From a virus: DNA of 28,269 bases. The notes beneath the pieces are model-generated. The model saw only the letters and a program-made list of their open reading frames with translations. It did not search any database and was not told the origin of the DNA. The position numbers and the translations under genes were made by a program. This document shows, piece by piece, positions 1-6,376 of this stretch; the first letter of the stretch is position 1; the number at the start of each line of letters is the position of its first letter. The stretch covers positions 1-28,269 of IMG/VR virus record IMGVR_UViG_3300035157_000152, one strand, 5' to 3'.

Positions 1-1023
1 AGCCAAGGTGATTATGGTAGTAAAGATATAGATGTATATACATGTGTGAAGAGAGATGAAAAAGGATGGTACTGGTATCAAGAAGCTAATGGCATAACGT
101 TACCAGACAGTCAAGGTAAGGCTCCACTAGATAAGAGTCCTTGGCTACCACTACGTTTTGTCACTGTGGACGGAGAAGATTACGGTCGTTCTAGAGTTGA
201 AGAGTTCCTTGGGGACTTGAAATCTTTAGAGGCATTGATGCAAGCTCTAGTTGAAGGTAGTGCAGCAGCTGCTAAAGTTGTATTCACTGTGTCACCCTCA
301 GCTACAACCAAGCCAGCATCATTAGCCAACGCAGGTAACGGTGCAATCATACAAGGTAGACCAGATGACATTGGTGTCGTTCAAGTAGGTAAAACTGCTG
401 ACTTCCAAACAGCATTTCAACTGGTTAATGTCTTAGAGAAGAGATTAGCTGAAGCCTTCTTAGTGCTGTCTGTAAGGCAGTCAGAGAGGACTACAGCGGA
501 AGAGGTTAGAATGACACAGATGGAACTAGAGAGGCAGCTTGGAGGACTCTTCAGCTTGCTCACAACAGAGTTCCTAATACCTTATCTCAACCGTAAGATG
601 CACACTCTTACTCAGTCTAAAAAGATTCCTAGTGTACCTAAGAATATAGTTAAACCTACCATTGTTGCAGGTATAAATGCACTAGGTAGAGGACAAGATA
701 GAGAATCATTAGTACAATTTATAACAACCATAGCACAGACTATGGGGCCAGAGGCATTACAACAATACCTCAATGCTGACGAGGCTATTAAACGTCTTGC
801 AGCTGCTCAAGGTATCGACATCCTAAACCTTGTTAAGAGTATGGATGAGCGTAATCAAGAGCAACAACAAGCTATGCAAGCACAGCAAATGCAGTCCCTG
901 ACTGACCAAGCTGGACAACTTGCTGGCTCTCCTATGATGGATCCACAAAAAAATCCAGATCTAGTCCCCGCAATGCAAGAAGCAATGCAAGGTGGAGCTG
1001 GTGATGTACCACAACAAATGTAA
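1..1023 (+). CDS. Portal (head-tail connector) protein, T7 gp8-like, 5' end outside window
   Basis: This is the C-terminal 340 codons of a portal protein. The frame is open from base 1, so the GTG at 46 is internal and the true start lies upstream. The portal forms the dodecameric ring at the capsid vertex through which DNA is packaged and ejected. Visible features are a helical segment typical of podoviral connectors (LEKRLAEAFL, then ERTTAEEVRMTQMELERQL) and a Gln/Met-rich tail (NQEQQQAMQAQQMQ) ending in acidic and Gly-rich sequence. The ERTTAEEV motif is characteristic of T7-type connectors. The scaffold gene follows two bases after the stop, as in T7 (gp8 then gp9). The family call is strong. 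The N-terminus cannot be assessed. Confidence 0.9.
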   Translation, partial: SQGDYGSKDIDVYTCVKRDEKGWYWYQEANGITLPDSQGKAPLDKSPWLPLRFVTVDGEDYGRSRVEEFLGDLKSLEALMQALVEGSAAAAKVVFTVSPSATTKPASLANAGNGAIIQGRPDDIGVVQVGKTADFQTAFQLVNVLEKRLAEAFLVLSVRQSERTTAEEVRMTQMELERQLGGLFSLLTTEFLIPYLNRKMHTLTQSKKIPSVPKNIVKPTIVAGINALGRGQDRESLVQFITTIAQTMGPEALQQYLNADEAIKRLAAAQGIDILNLVKSMDERNQEQQQAMQAQQMQSLTDQAGQLAGSPMMDPQKNPDLVPAMQEAMQGGAGDVPQQM

Positions 1024-1025
1024 TT

Positions 1026-1877
1026 ATGGCAGAAACAATACGCTACGACACATCTGAAGATCCCGTAGCAGCACAACAAATAGCTGAAGCTGAAGCTGAG
1101 TCTCTAAAGGTTGGCGAAGAACTGATGGCAAAGCAAAATAAAATGCTTGCTGGTAAGTACAAGTCAGCTGAGGATTTAGAATCCGCATACTTAGAACTCC
1201 AAAAGAAACTAGGTGAGGATACTACACCCACAGCTACAGAAGAACCTGTAGAAGAGACTGTAAGAGATGATTTATATAGTGATGATGGTAATGTCAACTA
1301 CGACACAGCTAACGAGTTGTATGGTGAACAGCTAGGAAACATCTTTAAGGATAATAGCATTGATCCGTTTGCTATGAGTAAACACTTTGCAGAAAATGGT
1401 GGTACTCTTAGCGATGATATGTATGAAGAGTTAGGTAAAGCTGGTCTTAATAGAGATCTAGTTGACTCCTACCTTGACGGAGTACGTAATAAAACAGGTG
1501 TTGAACAAGCACCTCCTACTTTAACTGACGCAGAAATTGCTGAGGTTAAAGGCATAGCCAATGGAGAAGAAGGTTACCAATCACTCATGGACTGGGCTGG
1601 TAAAGCTTTATCAAAGGAAGATCAAAATAACTATGATGAGGTACTAGCTACAGGAAATAAAACAGCTATTAAATTTGCAGTGAAAGCACTTATGGGACAA
1701 TACGAAGACGCTAACGGACGTGATTCTAAGATCGTTACAGGTAAAGAGTCACCTCAAGAAACATATAGAAGTATGGCAGAGGTTGTTAGAGATATGAACA
1801 AACCAGAATATACACAAGACGAAGCGTTCAGAGATGACGTTATTAGAAAACTTGCAGCATCAAACTTAAAAGTATAG
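1026..1877 (+). CDS. Capsid assembly scaffolding protein, T7 gp9-like
   Basis: This 283-residue, strongly acidic and mostly helical protein is rich in Glu, Asp, Ala and Lys, which is typical of podoviral scaffolds. Scaffold proteins fill the prohead, guide capsid protein assembly and leave before or during packaging. The N-terminal 60 residues contain helix-forming runs (IAEAEAESLKVGEELMAKQ) and the sequence YKSAEDLESAYLELQKKLGE, a common feature of phage scaffolds. The C-terminus is charged (EAFRDDVIRKLAAS), where T7-type scaffolds contact the coat. It lies directly downstream of the portal gene and starts with ATG-GCA. The capsid gene is not next: about 3.3 kb of accessory genes intervene. 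The call rests on composition, length and gene order. Confidence 0.88.
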   Translation: MAETIRYDTSEDPVAAQQIAEAEAESLKVGEELMAKQNKMLAGKYKSAEDLESAYLELQKKLGEDTTPTATEEPVEETVRDDLYSDDGNVNYDTANELYGEQLGNIFKDNSIDPFAMSKHFAENGGTLSDDMYEELGKAGLNRDLVDSYLDGVRNKTGVEQAPPTLTDAEIAEVKGIANGEEGYQSLMDWAGKALSKEDQNNYDEVLATGNKTAIKFAVKALMGQYEDANGRDSKIVTGKESPQETYRSMAEVVRDMNKPEYTQDEAFRDDVIRKLAASNLKV

Positions 1878-3819: not shown

Positions 3820-4896
3820 ATGGCTACAATTACATTATCTAAACCAAATACTGATTGGCAGAATTTTTGTAAGTGGGTAACAAACACAGATAACCGCCTC
3901 TACGTGGGGTGGTTTGGTGTGTTAATGATACCTTGCTTACTAACTGCTACAACATGTTTTATACTCGCCTTTATTGCTGCACCTCCTGTGGACATAGATG
4001 GCATACGTGAACCAGTAGCTGGCTCATTACTCTATGGAAACAACATCATATCTGGAGCGGTCGTACCCTCCTCAAACGCAATCGGACTACATTTCTATCC
4101 CATCTGGGAAGCAGCAACACTTGACGAATGGCTCTATAACGGAGGGCCATACCAGCTCGTTATCTTCCACTTCCTTATCGGTGCATTGTCTTACATGGGA
4201 CGACAATGGGAACTTAGTTATAGATTAGGAATGAGACCTTGGATATTTGTTGCTTACTCAGCTCCAGTATCAGCTGCACTAGCAGTGTTTCTCGTCTACC
4301 CTTTCGGGCAGGGGAGTTTCAGTGATGGCATGCCTCTTGGTATTTCTGGTACTTTTAACTTCATGTTTGTATTCCAAGCAGAACACAATATCCTTATGCA
4401 CCCGTTCCATATGCTCGGTGTTGCTGGGGTATTCGGTGGATCTCTTTTCGCTGCTATGCACGGAAGTCTCGTTACTTCCTCGCTTATTGCAGAGACAACA
4501 GAAGAGGTATCACAGAACTATGGCTATAAGTTTGGTCAAGAAGATGAGACTTATAACATCGTAGCTGCACACGGTTACTTTGGTAGACTTATATTTCAAT
4601 ATGCAAGTTTTAACAACAGTCGTGCTTTACATTTCTTTCTTGGTGCTTGGCCTGTTGTTGGCATATGGCTTACCTCAATGGGCATATGCACAATGGCTTT
4701 CAACCTTAATGGGTTTAACTTTAACCAGTCAATAGTTGACAGCAATGGTAAGGTTATTCCTACATGGGCTGACATTGTTAACAGACAAAACTTAGGTATG
4801 GAAGTAATGCACGAGCGTAACGCTCACAACTTCCCACTAGACTTGGCTTCAACTGAGTCAACAGAAGTTGCATTAACAGCACCTACACTAGCATAA
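3820..4896 (+). CDS. psbA: Photosystem II reaction-centre protein D1
   Basis: The 358-residue D1 is intact, full length and without intron. Numbering runs one lower than the usual scheme. The redox tyrosine is Tyr160 (usual 161) and the P680 and iron ligands are His197, His214 and His271. The manganese-cluster ligands are Asp169, Glu188, His331, Glu332, His336, Asp341 and the C-terminal Ala343 after processing. The CtpA cleavage site is kept (NFPLDLA then STESTEV), leaving a 15-residue extension. Ser263 and Phe264 of the QB pocket are present. Gln129 (usual position 130) resembles the low-light D1 form. Phage D1 replaces photodamaged host D1 during infection. The start abuts the hli stop and uses ATG-GCT. 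Confidence 0.99.
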
Positions 4897-4902
4897 TTGC
4901 CA

Positions 4903-4966
4903 CGTCCGTTCATCCCTTATGGGACGCATGACTCCAAAGCATGGAACGGGGCTTTGGTAAATGGAG
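4903..4966 (+). ncRNA. Glutamine riboswitch, Downstream-peptide motif (glnA-RNA related)
   Basis: The sequence reads as a three-way junction with pseudoknot. P1 pairs 4905-4911 with 4944-4950 (TCCGTTC with GAACGGG, one wobble). P2 pairs 4913-4916 with 4921-4924 around a TTAT loop. P3 pairs CATG 4927-4930 with CATG 4940-4943. The P3 loop (4934-4939, CCAAAG) pairs with CTTTGG at 4952-4957. The CGTTCATCC...GGACG...GGAACG core matches the Downstream-peptide/glnA RNA family, known to bind L-glutamine and found in marine Synechococcus, Prochlorococcus and their phages upstream of very short ORFs. That is exactly the arrangement here: GGAG at 4963-4966, then ATG 4973. CTCC at 4932-4935 could also pair with the GGAG, competing with the pseudoknot, which suggests control of translation initiation. 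Identification is by recall and hand folding. Confidence 0.85.
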
Positions 4967-4972
4967 ATAGCT

Positions 4973-5026
4973 ATGCAAGTTACCTACGTTTATCGTGGCG
5001 TTGCTTACACAAAAATTGTGAAGTAA
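4973..5026 (+). CDS. 17-aa riboswitch-controlled downstream peptide
   Basis: ATG 4973 follows GGAG at 4963-4966 with a six-base spacer, one of the best ribosome binding sites in the window. It opens an ORF encoding MQVTYVYRGVAYTKIVK. The TYxYRGVxY core resembles the start of small cyanobacterial DUF4278-like proteins (LTYRGVxY), often seen behind Downstream-peptide RNAs, here reduced to its first beta-hairpin. Position, length (such ORFs are described from about 17 residues upward) and start signal argue for a real peptide switched by glutamine. The function of these peptides is unknown; small inhibitors acting on nitrogen metabolism are a reasonable idea by analogy with glutamine-synthetase inactivating factors, but no sequence similarity shows that. 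Confidence 0.72.
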   Translation: MQVTYVYRGVAYTKIVK

Positions 5027-5035
5027 CAAAATCAG

Positions 5036-5071
5036 GAGGGGAGCACCTCAGAGTCGGACTCCTCTCCCCTT
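5036..5071 (+). other. Stable GC-rich hairpin in capsid leader
   Basis: AGGGGAG at 5037-5043 pairs with CTCCCCT at 5064-5070, with one further G-T pair, enclosing a second small hairpin (GAGT 5051-5054 with ACTC 5058-5061). No T-run follows directly, so it is not a classic terminator by itself. It stands ten bases after the stop of the 17-aa ORF and could protect or process the upstream psbA/peptide mRNA. Confidence 0.5.
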
Positions 5072-5099
5072 GGTAAGAGCCTCTACGGAGATACCTTTT
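5072..5099 (+). terminator. Weak intrinsic terminator candidate with UACG tetraloop
   Basis: GGTA 5072-5075 pairs with TACC 5092-5095, and inside it CTC 5081-5083 pairs with GAG 5088-5090 around a TACG loop, a very stable tetraloop closed by C-G. TTTT follows at 5096-5099. The stem is interrupted by an unpaired AGAGC on the 5' side, so termination would be partial. It would separate the hli-psbA-riboswitch transcript from the capsid unit. Confidence 0.35.
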
Positions 5100-5100
5100 G

Positions 5101-5112
5101 CCGTCATGACGG
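5101..5112. repeat. Perfect 12-bp palindrome CCGTCATGACGG
   Basis: A loopless perfect inverted repeat stands about 95 bases before the capsid ATG, between the terminator-like hairpin and the promoter candidate. A binding site for a dimeric regulator is possible, but no known operator was recognised. Confidence 0.4.
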
Positions 5113-5125
5113 TGGGATAGACCAC

Positions 5126-5206: not shown

Positions 5207-6376
5207 ATGGCACAACAGTCAACAGCCCATCAAGCGTCACAGACCTTTCTGGGTAGAATAAACACAGCGACAAACGCTACAAACAACAGAGACCTTTATT
5301 TAAAGTTGTTCTCAGGTGAGATGTTTACTGGATTCCAGAGGGAGACAATCGCACGTGACCTAGTCATGAAGCGTACGTTAACCAACGGTAAGAGTTTACA
5401 GTTCATCTATACTGGACGCACAAGTGCGGAATACCACACACCTGGCAACAGTATATTAGGAAACTCTGACAAAACTCCTCCAGTAGCAGAAAAAACAATT
5501 ACAGTAGATGACCTATTAATCAGCTCTGCATTTGTTTATGAGCTAGACGAGACACTCGCACACTATGAATTGAGAGGAGAGATCTCTAAGAAAATCGGCT
5601 ACGCACTTGCACAAAAGTATGATAGACTAATCTTCAGAGCGATCGCTAAGGGTGCTAGACAGGCATCTCCAGTATCACTAACCAACTTCGTTGAGCCTGG
5701 TGGTACACAAATCAGAGTTGGAGCAGGTTCTAATGCAGACGATGCTCTTGACGATCAGTTACTCGTTAATGCGTTCTATGACGCAGCAGCAGCACTTGAC
5801 GAAAAAGGAGTCAGTGATGATGGTCGGGTTGCCGTACTTAACCCTCGTCAGTACTATGCACTTATCCAAGGAGCAAGTTCTAACGGGCTAATCAACAGAG
5901 ACGTACAAGGTACATCTTTACAAAGCGGAAATGGTGTAATTGAAATTGCAGGTATTAGAATCTACAAGTCAATGAACGCTCCATTCTTCTCTAAGTATGG
6001 TACAAAGTATGCACCTGCTAGTGGTGCTTCAGCTGCTACTGACCTTGATACAGTAGATCCTGGAAATACAGGTTCATTCGTATCTGAGTCAATCGAAACA
6101 GCTACAACAGTTACAGGCAACAACTACGGAGCTCGTCAGAACTACGGTGCTGCTTCTAACTTTGCAAACACATGCGGGCTAATCTTCCAGAGAGAAGCTG
6201 CAGGTGTAGTAGAAACAATAGGGCCACAGGTTCAAGTAACTTCTGGTGATGTTTCTGTAGTTTACCAAGGCGATGTCATCCTAGGAAGACTAGCTATGGG
6301 AGCAGACTACGTGAACCCAGCAGCTTGTGTAGAATTGTTCGCTGGAACAACTACAAAGCCAGCTGCTTTCAACTAA
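5207..6376 (+). CDS. Major capsid protein, T7 gp10-like
   Basis: The 389-residue product is of T7-type HK97-fold coat length and forms the icosahedral shell. Recognisable segments are the N-terminal LYLKLFSGEMFTGFQRETIA, the E-loop-like stretch around residues 55-95 (SLQFIYTGRTSAEYHTPG), the long helix EISKKIGYALAQKYDRLIFR, the P-domain strand RVAVLNPRQYYALIQ, and the end RLAMGADYVNPAACVEL. ATG-GCA at 5207 has no Shine-Dalgarno; AT-rich sequence precedes it, as for other genes here. No frameshift-extended form (T7 gp10B) is evident: the stop is followed by an intrinsic terminator within 40 bases. Its own promoter region upstream and terminator downstream fit the highest-expressed late gene. 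Confidence 0.96.
   Translation: MAQQSTAHQASQTFLGRINTATNATNNRDLYLKLFSGEMFTGFQRETIARDLVMKRTLTNGKSLQFIYTGRTSAEYHTPGNSILGNSDKTPPVAEKTITVDDLLISSAFVYELDETLAHYELRGEISKKIGYALAQKYDRLIFRAIAKGARQASPVSLTNFVEPGGTQIRVGAGSNADDALDDQLLVNAFYDAAAALDEKGVSDDGRVAVLNPRQYYALIQGASSNGLINRDVQGTSLQSGNGVIEIAGIRIYKSMNAPFFSKYGTKYAPASGASAATDLDTVDPGNTGSFVSESIETATTVTGNNYGARQNYGAASNFANTCGLIFQREAAGVVETIGPQVQVTSGDVSVVYQGDVILGRLAMGADYVNPAACVELFAGTTTKPAAFN

Follow-up and report, generated by a model that had tools for sequence, protein, structure and literature searches.

A Glutamine-II riboswitch on a T7-like cyanophage late transcript that may gate translation of a short YRG peptide

The DNA analysed here (the window, a virus record 28,269 bases long) is part of a T7-like cyanophage genome, and it carries an aptamer of the Glutamine-II class ahead of a 17-codon open reading frame (ORF). 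Binding of glutamine by this aptamer is predicted from the class match and from the ligand-contact bases. We propose, with a probability of roughly 0.6, that the riboswitch gates translation of the YRG peptide encoded by this ORF on the late transcript, and that glutamine turns the peptide on. The arrangement, in which the aptamer and ORF are accompanied by a predicted ribosome-site hairpin closed by P0, a helix with the aptamer's 5' flank, is shown by comparison among related loci (Table 1).

Glutamine-II (RF01704, formerly Downstream-peptide) is the only Rfam match at the gathering threshold in the whole window. It covers the full model (1-60 of 60) and scores 53.3 bits (E 1.9e-10) against a gathering cut-off of 33 bits, which bears out the Downstream-peptide identity advanced in a preliminary description of this DNA. 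Pairing in the aptamer helices reaches 98.7% across 45 phage loci, with nine pairs changed on both sides and 79 double-changed cells, as against at most 58.7% when the partners are slid; the Rfam score and this covariation together exclude chance. In the crystal structure of the class, C1, G2, G18, C19, C39, G40 and G41 contact glutamine or form the triple, joined by A33:G42 (PMC6698751). Read against that structure, every contact and pocket base is found in the window: C4907 (C1), G4908 (G2), G4926 (G18), C4927 (C19), C4947 (C39), G4948 (G40), G4949 (G41) and A4941:G4950 (A33:G42). The base pairs of the preliminary description are likewise all present in the sequence, but its names for the helices are interchanged with respect to the crystal structure. 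The pairing that it calls "P1" (4905-4911/4944-4950) corresponds to the pseudoknot helix PK, its "P2" to the hairpin P1 and its "loop pseudoknot" (4934-4939/4952-4957) to the helix P2.

Table 1. Features of the window, in order along the sequence (positions are those of the whole window).
Feature	Position	Strand	Basis
Head-tail adaptor	46-1023	+	PHROG match
Scaffold	1026-1877	+	PHROG match
Oxygenase, endonuclease V, small unknown protein, high-light-inducible protein, in that order	between scaffold and psbA	+	PHROG matches
psbA (photosystem II D1)	3820-4896	+	PHROG 182, E 1.5e-192
P0 5' strand GCCACG, aptamer 5' flank	4899-4904	+	real-versus-swapped pairing; pair counts
Glutamine-II aptamer	4904-4958	+	Rfam score; covariation of P1 and P2, invariant PK
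Aptamer helix PK	4907-4911/4944-4948 plus C4927:G4949	+	invariant in 45 loci
Aptamer hairpin P1	4913-4916/4921-4924	+	covariation
Aptamer helix P2 (full length)	4934-4940/4951-4957	+	covariation
Ribosome-site hairpin 5' strand GGUAAAUG	4956-4963	+	covariation with 4987-4994
Shine-Dalgarno GGAG of the peptide ORF	4963-4966	+	sequence; ATG at 4973
Peptide ORF MQVTYVYRGVAYTKIVK, 17 codons plus stop; YRG peptide resembling DUF4278	4973-5026	+	conserved ORF, codon-position pattern
Ribosome-site hairpin 3' strand CGUUUAUC	4987-4994	+	compensatory changes; wobble bases nearly frozen
P0 3' strand CGUGGC (Arg-Gly codons)	4994-4999	+	real-versus-swapped pairing; pair counts
Major capsid protein gene, 3' of the peptide ORF	5207-6376	+	PHROG 267, E 9.6e-80

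The placement in a phage late region, also suggested earlier, stands: the aptamer follows psbA and precedes the capsid gene of a T7-like cyanophage, and tail genes come after the capsid gene on the same (+) strand (PHROG matches). Ten bases separate the psbA stop (TAA, 4894-4896) from C4907, base 1 of the aptamer. Such close spacing recurs among the relatives: in about 80 of 120 distinct loci an upstream ORF stops 7-17 bases 5' of the aptamer, with maxima at 9 and 10 bases.

How widespread the arrangement is was judged from a pattern scan of IMG/VR (at least 120 stretches) and from relatives of the capsid gene (80 loci); a looser viral scan yielded chiefly chance matches and was dropped in favour of another. 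Pooling both sources gave 138 distinct viral aptamers among the matches listed, and 132 of these have a YRG-motif ORF within 45 bases 3' of the aptamer, which upholds the earlier claim of a YRG ORF, 17 codons long in the window, behind it and shows the ORF to be conserved. Of the other six, four are truncated at the end of a contig and two resemble chance matches. Of 45 capsid loci for which at least 1 kb of upstream sequence was available, 37 carry the aptamer. Across the capsid loci the aptamer lies anywhere from 252 to 1085 bases ahead of the capsid gene, and the capsid gene comes next in nearly all aptamer loci.

Rfam also finds the aptamer in 12 of 14 named phage records, including P-SSP7, P-GSP1, P-SSP3, NATL2A-133, S-RIP2, S-CBP1, S-CBP4, S-TIP37, NATL1A-7 and SS120-1, and not in the remaining two, 7B11-B and S-SRP01. 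SS120-1 has no psbA annotated between its scaffold and capsid genes and keeps the aptamer, so the aptamer travels with the capsid region and not with psbA. In the records of P-SSP7, P-GSP1 and P-SSP3 (L321, L322, L461) both the riboswitch and the peptide ORF are unannotated. On the host side, Prochlorococcus/Synechococcaceae loci (L201, L202, L207 and similar) contain a second class of Glutamine-II aptamers, which precedes an ORF starting MNNLL... or MNELS... and without the YRG motif.

The peptide itself bears the marks of a coding sequence. A comparison of synonymous and non-synonymous changes among 33 distinct VYRG-type relatives, of the kind that the preliminary description had proposed, finds the YRG amino acids conserved and the substitutions mostly at third codon positions, with a few chemically similar changes; from this pattern, the ORF is translated now or was until recently. 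A 33-residue phage relative at the same position matches DUF4278 (PF14105) at 31.3 bits, above the Pfam cut-off of 25.3. Other phage peptides score 16-23, below that cut-off, and a 21-residue reading of the window peptide from an upstream in-frame ATG gives no DUF4278 match. The host protein behind a Prochlorococcus Glutamine-II aptamer is a full DUF4278 match (44.2 bits). Host proteins of this family (PF14105, PMM1846-like) have 55-57 residues and three YR repeats, whereas the phage peptides persist in many lengths (13-39 residues) with one repeat, some of them carrying an added N-terminal stretch. The phage sequence ...YVYRGVAYTK resembles one YRG repeat of the host sequence ...LNYRGVNYTK, and the peptide probably imitates one repeat of the host DUF4278 protein controlled by the same riboswitch class.

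Type 2 glutamine riboswitches accompany DUF4278 genes in marine picocyanobacteria, and DUF4278 makes up the N-terminus of IF17, a glutamine synthetase inactivating factor; this N-terminal part is reported to be dispensable for IF17 function (PMC6316151). What the phage peptide shares with IF17 is the DUF4278 part only, and we do not claim membership of IF17. Because the peptide resembles this part of IF17, it is plausible that the phage tunes host nitrogen assimilation through it.

The better supported expression platform, as judged by comparing leaders, would combine pairing of the 5' flank with the YRG codons (P0) and pairing of the Shine-Dalgarno region with the YVYR codons. The window leader folds with the Shine-Dalgarno sequence in a hairpin whose opposite strand is coding sequence, and which is closed by the helix to the aptamer's 5' flank. 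The first two bases of GGUAAAUG (4956-4957) double as the 3' end of P2, and CGUUUAUC comprises the end of a Tyr codon, Val, Tyr and the first base of Arg. Compensatory combinations of UTR and codons occur among relatives (UAUAUG/GUAUAU, UAAAUG/GUUUAU, UAGAUG/GUUUAU), and within UTRs of the ATG type TATATG is always found with GTATAT, and TAAATG and TAGATG always with GTTTAT. A relative with AUAGGAG has its paired Phe codon changed from TTC to TTT, and in KYRG phages the alignment sets UTR GGUACU opposite codon bases AGUAUC. The pair formed at alignment columns 70-112, which involves a codon wobble position, occurs as five pair types and is intact in 40 of 45 rows. Wobble bases hardly vary across precisely the pairing codons, and they do vary on both sides of them.

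For P0, pairing of each flank with its own YRG codons averaged -8.82 across 126 loci, compared with -7.39 for the codons of other loci (s.d. 0.16); with the comparison widened to run from P2 through the YRG codons, the values were -10.66 real and -8.49 swapped. Real pairing was better than swapped within every peptide family, and also among 22 sequences under 75% alike (-9.8 versus -7.5, s.d. 0.42), and at every thinning level none of 300 swaps matched it. Holding P0 to a fixed register gives a small gain over swapping (0.673 versus 0.649), and roughly one P0 cell in five is unpaired. Taken together, the hairpin and P0 have 81.9% of cells paired, as against 27-49% when slid, and a covariation score of 0.230, as against 0.05-0.12 when slid, with none of 500 shuffles as high; two of five covariation measures do not exceed the shuffles (double-sided changes, 144/500; further pair types, 380/500). 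Native flanks lower the accessibility of the ribosome site slightly (0.411 versus 0.422 with swapped flanks).

In other phages the partner of the flank is the Shine-Dalgarno sequence itself, as in the long-peptide phages L113, L020, L081, L015 and L087, or bases beside the start codon. A lineage with a GTAC-type flank (L009, L016, L046, L078, L079) is without a GGAG Shine-Dalgarno and has GUACGAAC before the start codon, complementary to flank UUCGUAC including the glutamine-binding base C1. Host YRG codons often use AGA instead of CGT.

In the model that we favour, the pseudoknot would be open without glutamine, its strand CGUUCA would serve as a slack linker, and P0 and the hairpin would cover the Shine-Dalgarno sequence (OFF). 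Glutamine would close PK on a complete P2, claiming the G bases 4956-4957 that P2 and the hairpin have in common. The closed PK would hold the 5' flank about a P2 length from the start of the hairpin, and under the resulting strain P0 and the hairpin would release the Shine-Dalgarno sequence (ON). In the crystal fold, the 5' flank exits at the PK-P2 junction and the hairpin begins at the far end of P2. We infer the ON direction because P2 and the hairpin share 4956-4957, because the alternative helix of the GTAC type takes C1, because two linker bases must bridge about a P2 length, and because the published direction for the class is ON, a Prochlorococcus type 2 riboswitch activating expression upon glutamine binding (PMC6316151). 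The sign of the switch is the weakest step of the model. When P1 and P2 were forced in ViennaRNA, accessibility of the Shine-Dalgarno sequence was unchanged (0.297 free, 0.294 bound), so folding neither supports nor refutes the switch, and its proposed sign and size rest on geometry and on the published host case, which is without the platform.

Upstream translation may also contribute. A ribosome ending psbA would lift the 5' strand of P0, since with a stop 7-17 bases before the aptamer the terminating ribosome would overlap that strand. Peptide synthesis may thus need psbA translation too, and coupling of the peptide to translation of the upstream gene is plausible from the spacing. More tentatively, the phages may have evolved a platform of their own, in several designs that include direct pairing of flank and Shine-Dalgarno sequence. 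In it, codons would act as the anti-ribosome-site strand (YVYR against the Shine-Dalgarno region, RG against the aptamer's 5' flank), and in combination with psbA translation it would respond as an AND gate whose inputs are glutamine and translation of the upstream gene. If this is true, peptide sequence and RNA switch would be constrained together.

It is unlikely that glutamine instead turns the peptide off, as it would if P0 closed the aptamer and the ligand stabilised P0, hiding the ribosome site. In some long-peptide phages (L113, L020) P0 does adjoin the aptamer with the Shine-Dalgarno sequence as its 3' strand, like a closing stem, and the folding calculation does not tell the two states apart. 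Published type 2 and type 1 glutamine riboswitches, however, activate expression (PMC6316151), and the cooperation that an OFF switch would need is opposed both by the two bases that the hairpin shares with P2 and by the GTAC-phage helix that takes C1. A gate of translational coupling, opened at P0 by ribosomes finishing psbA and with little part for glutamine in the phage, seems less probable still. It would account for the short distance from upstream stop to aptamer in most distinct loci, and no promoter-like site was seen between psbA and the aptamer; yet the aptamer and its glutamine contacts are under selection, and phages without an adjacent psbA, or without any (SS120-1), retain the aptamer.

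Given that the capsid gene comes next so regularly, and that a phage without psbA retains both riboswitch and capsid, one might suppose that the riboswitch serves the capsid gene by altering transcription into, or stability of, its transcript, the peptide being a by-product. We consider this very improbable: no terminator-like site was seen 3' of the aptamer, the distance to the capsid gene is variable, conservation extends to the YRG amino acids, and the ORF is maintained at many different lengths. The switch of the preliminary description, in which CTCC 4932-4935 alternates between aptamer and GGAG pairing, is hardly credible. Such complementarity does exist in the window, but the motif occurs in only 4 of 45 relatives, without covariation, and two of its four bases sit in P2, which according to published probing is formed with and without ligand (reported in PMC6698751). 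Pairing of the PK 5' strand with the Shine-Dalgarno region (UCCGUU 4905-4910/AAUGGA 4960-4965) was also considered and set aside: its energy is weak (real -4.29, swapped -3.99, s.d. 0.09), and P0 and the hairpin explain more.

A second conserved structured RNA lies between peptide and capsid gene at 5035-5125, in the capsid gene's 5' UTR of T7-like cyanophages. No Rfam match to it is better than E 1.9. The element is present in 155 distinct stretches of the loci collected and occurs with and without the riboswitch (without it in L455 and L457). It consists of a variable 5' module, a GGYNNNRG/CYNNNGCC stem around a UACG-capped hairpin, a CCGUCUAGACGG hairpin and a GUGG-GAUAGA-CCAC hairpin. The UACG-capped and GAUAGA-capped stems have compensatory changes, those of the latter comprising GUGUG/CACAC, GUAGG/CCUAC, GUCUG/CAGAC and GUCG/CGAC. 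At one and the same position the 5' module is either of two unrelated structures, a hairpin whose loop CACCUCAGAGUCGGA is nearly invariant (L188:942-1014, L192:1598-1669, L458:4241-4311) or a T-arm-like structure (L321, L322, L460, L124), and some phages have a real tRNA-Gly(TCC) gene directly before an element of this type. Because the module is interchangeable with a tRNA-like form or a tRNA-Gly gene, the element might be a site of RNA processing (by RNase P/Z or III) before the capsid message, which is only a guess.

T7-like cyanophages abound in the sea and infect nitrogen-limited hosts. Retention of a glutamine sensor close to the capsid gene, seen in 37 of 45 related loci, suggests that these phages sense the nitrogen state of the host late in infection, and the conserved micropeptide gives this sensing a named target. 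One set of bases seems to do double duty, coding for the peptide and forming part of the switch.

The aptamer class and its link to short YRG ORFs are already known (PMC2864571; PMC6316151). T4-like cyanophages have been mentioned as carrying glutamine riboswitches (PMC9964418, PMC9602691), and a methylophage as carrying one of the glnA type (PMC9004378). Our literature search found no account of Glutamine-II as a frequent element of T7-like cyanophages, nor of the codon-based platform, although earlier descriptions are possible.

With the Glutamine-II, or type 2 glutamine, riboswitch (RF01704; yfr6 in Prochlorococcus) the phage element shares aptamer sequence, pseudoknot fold and ligand-contact bases, as well as its position before a short YRG/DUF4278 ORF. 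It differs in sitting in the capsid operon after psbA and in its putative P0 and ribosome-site hairpin, which fall outside the Rfam model and have no consistent counterpart in the host DUF4278 leaders examined. A general class of RNA switches masks the Shine-Dalgarno sequence by pairing it with early codons, and here too coding bases would supply the anti-Shine-Dalgarno strand; in the phage version this pairing would be combined with an aptamer for a metabolite and with a further helix to the 5' flank, and the peptide has 17 codons. The gifB type 1 (glnA RNA) riboswitch controlling IF17 is likewise a glutamine-responsive leader before a small DUF4278-containing protein, but its aptamer is a three-way junction and its product is a full glutamine synthetase inhibitor (PMC6316151), whereas the phage product is a peptide of 17 residues.
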